Shown piece after piece: positions 42,928-44,426 of a stretch of 62,594 nucleotides of DNA. The translations under genes were made by a program, and so were the position numbers. Within the stretch, counting starts at the first letter, position 1. Every line of letters starts with the position of its first letter. Origin of the DNA: Methylophaga sp. (GTDB lineage: Bacteria; Pseudomonadota; Gammaproteobacteria; Nitrosococcales; Methylophagaceae); the NCBI GenBank assembly GCA_024636315.1, contig JAGXHJ010000033.1:1-62594 (forward strand), read 5' to 3'. The notes beneath the pieces were generated by a model. That model was not told the origin of the DNA and made no database searches. It saw nothing but the letters and a program-made list of their open reading frames with translations.

Positions 42928-43461
42928 TTAGTTGTTTGTGAACTGTTTCAGCCATTCTTTTTCCATCATGATCTCGTGGGTGCTTTCAACGCGGTCAATA
43001 TAAACGATACCGTCTAGGTGATCTAATTCATGCTGGAACACACGAGCAATAAAGCCTGTGTATTCTACTTCAATGTGCTCATTAGACCGAGATGTATATT
43101 GAACTTTAATTGCCTGATGACGAGGGACTAAACCTCTTATCCCAGGTAAGCTTAAACAGCCTTCCCAGCCTTTTTCAACTTCATCAGAACGCCAGATTAT
43201 TTCAGGATTAATAACAAAAGTTGGTGCCATTTCCGGCGCGAGTGGGTAACGTGAATTGGGCCGTGAACACATAATGAATAATCGTTGGTTGATATCAACT
43301 TGTGGTGCGGCAATGCCCACACCATTTTTAGCAATGACAAATGCTAATAACTCATCGAGCAAATGTTGGGTTTCGGTAGACAATATCTCAGTAACCGGCT
43401 CAGCTTGACGGCGAAGATGAGGGTGACCTAATTGAATTAATTCAAAGTCTGTATGATTCAT
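42928..43461 (-). CDS. def: Peptide deformylase
   Basis: Metalloenzyme that removes the formyl group from nascent proteins at the ribosome exit. The three motifs are present: GVGIAAPQV, EGCLSLPGIRG and the metal-binding QHELDHLDG. 177 residues. It is not beside fmt, where def usually lies in gammaproteobacteria, and may be a second paralogue. Its start overlaps the stop of an oxygenase gene by one base (TAATG), so translation is likely coupled to that gene. Confidence 0.95.
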   Translation of the reverse strand: MNHTDFELIQLGHPHLRRQAEPVTEILSTETQHLLDELLAFVIAKNGVGIAAPQVDINQRLFIMCSRPNSRYPLAPEMAPTFVINPEIIWRSDEVEKGWEGCLSLPGIRGLVPRHQAIKVQYTSRSNEHIEVEYTGFIARVFQHELDHLDGIVYIDRVESTHEIMMEKEWLKQFTNN

Positions 43462-44426
43462 TAGTATGCATTCTCCAATGAATCATTGATATGAAACCAG
43501 CCAGAAATACTGTAACGATCGCGATTTGCCCTAAGAACTTGGTGTGGGAATTGGTCACTGAGAAAAACGATAAATTTACCGTATTCAGGAAGTATTTGTT
43601 CGATAACCTCCTCAGTTTCAGGATGATAGATAACAAGCTCACCACCATCAGCAGTTTGCCAATCAGGGTTAAGATATAACAAGGTCGTTAGTATGCGATT
43701 AGATTGGCCTTTAAATGCATCTACATGGCGTTGGTAGTAAGCACCAGGAGCGTAATGAGCATAGTGCGCTTCGTATTTAAATAAGCCCATATATAAGCGT
43801 TGATTGAGCTCTGTACGCAAATTGGACATCCAATCAAGGTAACTAGCATCAATACCATTATCGACCGTCAGCCAGCGAGTCTCATCACTACGAATTTCTT
43901 GATTTAGTTGAAATGCTTGTTTACGACCAACACCTGCTACATTAAAGTCAGCAGTAGTAAGTTGAGTGACTCGCTGGGAGAGGGAGACCATCATTGTTTC
44001 AGGCAGTAGCTGAGGTGCAATGTAATAACCCTTGTCGACAAGTGCATCGGCAATTTGGTCATATATATCAATAACGACTAGAGGCGAAATAGTGACAGCA
44101 TCGTTTTCAATAGTCGTAACTACGCAATATGCGTTGTCGATAAGTGCTTCGTCAATCTGCTTAGATAGATCAGCAACTACGGTCGGTGAAATATTGACCG
44201 AGTCCTCATCAATAGTCGCCATAATGCAATAAGGCTTATCAGTCAGGTTGTCATCATGCTGGTCAGTTGTATCTGCATCTGTGAGCGACGAAATATTGAC
44301 CGAATCATTTTCAATAGTGGCCATAATACAAAATGCCTTGTCGACAAAAGCATTGTCATCTTGGTTATAGATATCAATAACCACAACGGGTGTACTATTT
44401 TCCAAATTATTTTCATGAACAGTCAT
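43461..44426 (-). CDS. 2OG-Fe(II) oxygenase (prolyl-hydroxylase-like) with repeated N-terminus
   Basis: 321 residues. The C-terminal ~200 form a 2-oxoglutarate/Fe(II) dioxygenase of the PHD/SM-20 type. Iron ligands H234, D236 (QRHVDAF) and H295 (FPHQVL) and the 2OG-binding R304 (DRYSISGWF) are all present, as is the LNPDW...GGELVIY segment. Related bacterial enzymes hydroxylate prolines, for example of EF-Tu in Pseudomonas; the target here is unknown. The family's usual opening (QIADALVDKGYYI) begins only near residue 124, preceded by about three 34-residue copies of the same unit. The stop overlaps def. The repeat is continuous in frame and could be expressed, but its function is unknown. 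Confidence 0.85.
   Translation of the reverse strand: MTVHENNLENSTPVVVIDIYNQDDNAFVDKAFCIMATIENDSVNISSLTDADTTDQHDDNLTDKPYCIMATIDEDSVNISPTVVADLSKQIDEALIDNAYCVVTTIENDAVTISPLVVIDIYDQIADALVDKGYYIAPQLLPETMMVSLSQRVTQLTTADFNVAGVGRKQAFQLNQEIRSDETRWLTVDNGIDASYLDWMSNLRTELNQRLYMGLFKYEAHYAHYAPGAYYQRHVDAFKGQSNRILTTLLYLNPDWQTADGGELVIYHPETEEVIEQILPEYGKFIVFLSDQFPHQVLRANRDRYSISGWFHINDSLENAY
44016..44393 (-). repeat. Tandem 102-bp repeats encoding the oxygenase N-terminus
   Basis: Residues 12-137 of the oxygenase hold about 3.5 copies of a 34-residue unit. Landmarks recur at exact 34 spacing: D29-K30, D63-K64, D97-N98, D131-K132; and S46, S80, S114 at the end of ENDSVNIS-like segments. Copies have diverged in sequence (for example CIMATIENDSVNIS, CIMATIDEDSVNIS, CVVTTIENDAVTIS) but keep length, so selection or recent amplification is possible. 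Confidence 0.9.

Follow-up and report, generated by a model that had tools for sequence, protein, structure and literature searches.

Here we describe a prolyl hydroxylase gene in the genus Methylophaga whose protein has probably been lengthened from within: the account that we favour is that of a PPHD-like enzyme with an ancestral quadrupling of its first 34 codons and a translated, acidic N-terminal tail. PPHD is a Pseudomonas prolyl hydroxylase whose target is EF-Tu, which it hydroxylates at Pro54 (PDB 4iw3 and 4j25; Scotti et al. 2014, as cited in PMC5701443). The gene lies on a stretch of 62,594 nucleotides from Methylophaga sp. (contig JAGXHJ010000033.1, positions 1 to 62,594, assembly GCA_024636315.1), which is referred to as the window. 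The reading frame proposed by a first-pass annotation of this DNA, 43461-44426 on the minus strand, was found as claimed, with an ATG start and 321 residues, and the features of the locus are as follows.

42928..43461, minus strand: peptide deformylase gene, immediately downstream, with an ATG that shares one base with the hydroxylase stop
43461..44426 (stop included), minus strand: hydroxylase coding sequence, 321 residues, ATG start (PF13640, 6.5e-23; 4iw3, 1.8e-35)
43464..44018, minus strand: remainder of the putative prolyl hydroxylase, residues 137-321, 2OG-Fe(II) oxygenase domain (Pfam match at 221-312)
43515..43517, minus strand: R304, the expected 2OG-binding arginine (family and PPHD alignments)
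43542..43544, minus strand: H295, third metal ligand (family and PPHD alignments)
43719..43727, minus strand: HxD metal-binding motif, H234 and D236 (family and PPHD alignments)
44019..44120, minus strand: unit 4, residues 103-136 (VTTIENDAVTISPLVVIDIYDQIADALVDKGYYI), the enzyme's own N-terminal segment (alignment with the single-copy homologue L043)
44121..44222, minus strand: unit 3, residues 69-102 (MATIDEDSVNISPTVVADLSKQIDEALIDNAYCV), opening with an in-frame ATG (self-comparison)
44223..44324, minus strand: unit 2, residues 35-68 (MATIENDSVNISSLTDADTTDQHDDNLTDKPYCI), opening with an in-frame ATG; its helix part is the most diverged
44325..44426, minus strand: unit 1, residues 1-34 (MTVHENNLENSTPVVVIDIYNQDDNAFVDKAFCI); its start codon and that of L043 are homologous

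The first-pass annotation had described 3.5 copies, at 34 residues each, of the family's first helix region. The period is borne out by self-comparison, in which the best self-match lag of the protein is 34 with a BLOSUM62 sum of 220, against a shuffle null (n=3000, best of all lags) with a mean of 1.3, a standard deviation of 8.5 and a maximum of 38. It is also the enzyme's own N-terminal segment that has been tandemly copied, but the unit comprises all of the first 34 codons, the start codon among them, and the count comes to four complete units in phase with that codon, three extra and the enzyme's own. Unit 4 is identical at 19 of 34 positions to the first 34 residues of L043 and is followed, from residue 137 onward, by enzyme sequence beginning APQLLPE. 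Identity between units is 32-53% at the protein level and 54-69% in DNA, and because the copies have diverged this far the 102-bp array went unreported by both a DNA repeat finder and TRF. Three features recur in nearly all units: Q22, D29 and aromatic character at position 32.

Downstream of the extra units the protein is, to judge from its sequence, a complete PPHD-like 2OG-Fe(II) prolyl hydroxylase of a known kind, otherwise ordinary, and one of the bacterial relatives of the prolyl hydroxylases that sense oxygen. PF13640 (2OG-FeII_Oxy_3) is matched at residues 221-312 (E = 6.5e-23, 82 bits against a gathering score cut-off of 27). Among solved structures PPHD comes out closest (4iw3/4j25, E = 1.8e-35), with the HIF prolyl hydroxylases after it and 9.7e-13 as the next best E-value; the earlier label 'prolyl-hydroxylase-like' was well chosen. 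The residues that had been listed as intact, H234, D236, H295 and R304, are indeed invariant in the genus and family alignment and line up with PPHD chain 4iw3, in which H124, D126 and H183 are the metal ligands (PMC6235002) and correspond to H234, D236 and H295. The alignment runs over the PPHD chain from query residue 125 to 312, and the extra 102 residues have no PPHD counterpart: the usual architecture of this type, which is not in itself a mark of function, places the catalytic domain directly at the N-terminus, whereas here, and in three species altogether, 102 further residues are present. HIF prolyl hydroxylases (EGLN1/PHD2, Trichoplax PHD) belong to the same superfamily, share the active-site set and also carry additional N-terminal parts (a MYND zinc finger, PMC6235002), but theirs is an unrelated zinc-finger domain rather than copies of the enzyme itself. 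No account of an array of this kind turned up in the part of the literature that was covered.

The EF-Tu target proline motif, DNAPEERERGITI, occurs in the array-bearing genome G006 and in G024, and also in G008 and G010, both without the hydroxylase. Since genomes lacking the enzyme have the motif too, and the window genome's own tuf gene is interrupted by a contig end, the substrate is not inferable from it; EF-Tu would be the candidate here by analogy with the family only. An extension of this analogy, that the units imitate switch I of EF-Tu and sit in the active site as a pseudosubstrate, takes its appeal from a superficial likeness, by eye, between DNAFVDKA in unit 1 and DNAPEERE in switch I. 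When the switch I region of the genus EF-Tu was matched to the array without gaps, it did no better than shuffles (for the three species, the fraction at or above the observed value was 0.62, 0.57 and 0.88), and we hold the idea to be extremely improbable. At the other end of the gene, the sequence TAATG at 43459-43463 has the hydroxylase stop and the deformylase start sharing one base, an overlap that suggests that the deformylase gene is translationally coupled to a possible EF-Tu hydroxylase.

Among 29 genomes of the genus, the window genome (G000) included, the array is found in three: G000, G006 (apparently MAG-71) and G005 (apparently HyVt-379). All three species have four units in the same frame, with one extra residue in unit 2 of the G006 locus, L041. 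In a tree of the catalytic domain they group together with support of 94/94, and a single change accounts for the array in 90% of bootstrap trees; the single-copy G024, G020 and G001 join them in a larger, weakly resolved clade. The block of Gate-domain gene, hydroxylase, deformylase, MarC and DUF3549 is kept in most genus and family relatives and identifies most of the homologues there as one gene at an unchanged position. Single-copy orthologues (G024, G020, G001, G030, G034 and G035) share 56-66% identity over the matched part and the syntenic position beside the Gate-domain gene, and mostly that beside the peptide deformylase where the contig allows, but have one N-terminal unit only. The first-pass annotation had considered that close relatives might all begin normally near residue 115-124. 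Outside the three-species clade, the genus and family homologues do have a normal short N-terminus wherever it is readable, but in the two nearest relatives the array is present and in frame.

Of 274 genomes sampled across the class, 47 had a match, 46 of them besides the window, and 30 loci were read, the window's among them; no array was seen by eye in the 29 other loci. Long open upstream frames (e.g. L070, L071, L072 and L062) were rejected as arrays, being by eye unlike the enzyme N-terminus, and the longer match in G021 (query 62-314) proved to be tblastn extending into a stop-containing stretch in front of a true single-copy N-terminus. One locus of the same family, L030 (G031:C24:8716-9310), is matched by two overlapping segments, each in its own frame (query 209-316 and 117-214), likely reflecting a frameshift or a sequencing error. 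The hydroxylase was undetected in five genus genomes (G004, G008, G010, G026 and G027); because three of these (G008, G010 and G027) are about 99% complete, the enzyme seems to be dispensable in the genus.

The origin of the unit can be read from G024, which has the closest single-copy relative in which the leader is retained and whose protein L043 starts with MTANNLQAVDSSSIVPAYIYDQIADALADKGYCI, exactly 34 residues, and continues with FDSLLP at the same junction. Around the start codon, G024 and the window are identical at 36 of 60 positions (alignment score 12, null maximum -1). Because L043 has 34 residues before the junction and a homologous start region, the unit corresponds to the first 34 codons of the gene, ATG included. 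Between species, like-positioned units agree at 15-32 of 34 residues and different units at 7-18 of 34; since the like-positioned units are the closer ones, the array expanded before the three species diverged and has not been homogenised since. The earlier statement that this is no fresh slippage product therefore holds, the copies being diverged, constant in number and common to three species, and on these comparisons the array is old and lineage-specific. In our proposed account, the first 34 codons, with the start codon among them, would have been tandemly duplicated to four copies in an ancestor of these three species. Translation would still begin at the original ATG, unit 4 would provide the fold with its usual first helix and strand, as homology suggests, and units 1-3 would be translated as an extra N-terminal tail, strongly acidic and, as their pN/pS indicates, under relaxed purifying selection.

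Whether the upstream units are translated at all bears on a reading in which the start has been misplaced, the true protein beginning at about residue 115 behind an untranslated array. Relatives outside the clade do begin about there. However, codons 70-144 of the window include no ATG, GTG or TTG, so that a start near residue 115, an outcome that the first-pass annotation had allowed for, is very unlikely and would need a rare codon, and M1 is the first start codon past the upstream in-frame stop. The frame is also open and under purifying selection in all three species, which leaves the misplaced start highly improbable. An open frame was kept in 0.08% of base-shuffled arrays, and the real array is open. 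By Nei-Gojobori counts with bootstrap limits, pN/pS of units 1-3 in the three species pairs is 0.28 (0.13-0.60), 0.34 (0.24-0.49) and 0.40 (0.28-0.58), compared with 0.13-0.16 for the catalytic part of the same three species; in comparisons with L042, synonymous sites approach saturation. Units 1-3 thus appear to be translated under relaxed purifying selection, for which these values are good evidence, if short of proof. Between the window and L041, pS in units 1 and 2 is 0.22 and 0.09 compared with 0.36 in the catalytic part (44223-44426; small numbers), and constraint on the start-proximal mRNA might lie behind the difference.

Relaxed selection relative to the catalytic part would also be expected if the units were nearly neutral baggage of an old slippage or unequal crossover, in which in-frame loss is rare and frame breaks kill the downstream enzyme. 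In its favour, the array frame must stay open because the window offers no usable start downstream. Yet pN/pS lies below 1 in all three pairs, with bootstrap upper limits of 0.49-0.60, which would imply more constraint than the need for an open frame alone would give, and copy number is unchanged in the three species; we consider it quite unlikely that the array is baggage of this kind. Still less can be said for expression tuning, in which copied start codons would allow initiation at M1, M35 or M69 and yield several N-terminal forms. In-frame ATGs open units 1, 2 and 3 in both the window and L041, and AAGG stands, by eye, about 11 nt before M35, but unit 3 of L042 starts with TTG instead and the pN/pS of units 1-3 indicates selection on the protein, so we rate such tuning very unlikely.

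The tail itself has a net charge of -18 over residues 1-102 in the window, and of -18 to -21 across the three species. It is most likely non-catalytic, and may affect solubility, stability or a weak contact of the enzyme; units 1-3 cannot all fill the single first helix and strand site used by unit 4. Set against a mere tail is the retention of three extra units over a near-saturated synonymous distance, and this, together with Q22, D29 and the aromatic residue at position 32, could point to a more specific role. A functional module, in which repeated helix and strand units bind the substrate, drive oligomerisation of the enzyme or trade places with the native first helix, would account for the purifying selection on units 1-3, the constant unit number, the retained residues and Cys33, which is present in 9 of 9 copies of units 1-3 across the three species; a low-confidence model also places helices in units 3 and 4. 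The same units, however, evolve faster than the catalytic part, the helix pattern is largely lost from unit 2, and homologues elsewhere do without the array. Structure prediction with AlphaFold was unusable as support, reaching a pLDDT of 34 for the full protein (4 sequences) and 40 for residues 1-142 (3 sequences), values too low to tell whether units 1-3 would fold. On balance we regard such a module as unlikely, and the stronger proposal, that the quadrupled helix-strand unit has become a new N-terminal functional domain controlling the enzyme through substrate choice, assembly or autoinhibition, as decidedly doubtful.

An acidic tail added to an otherwise ordinary enzyme therefore remains our preferred reading. 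It would make this locus a clean case of protein growth in which a gene's opening 34 codons were copied again and again. Close relatives still show the unduplicated state, three species share the same fourfold one, and whether an appendage of this sort has a function can be tested directly in this system. For the biology of prolyl hydroxylases, the array would matter only if it alters activity or substrate.
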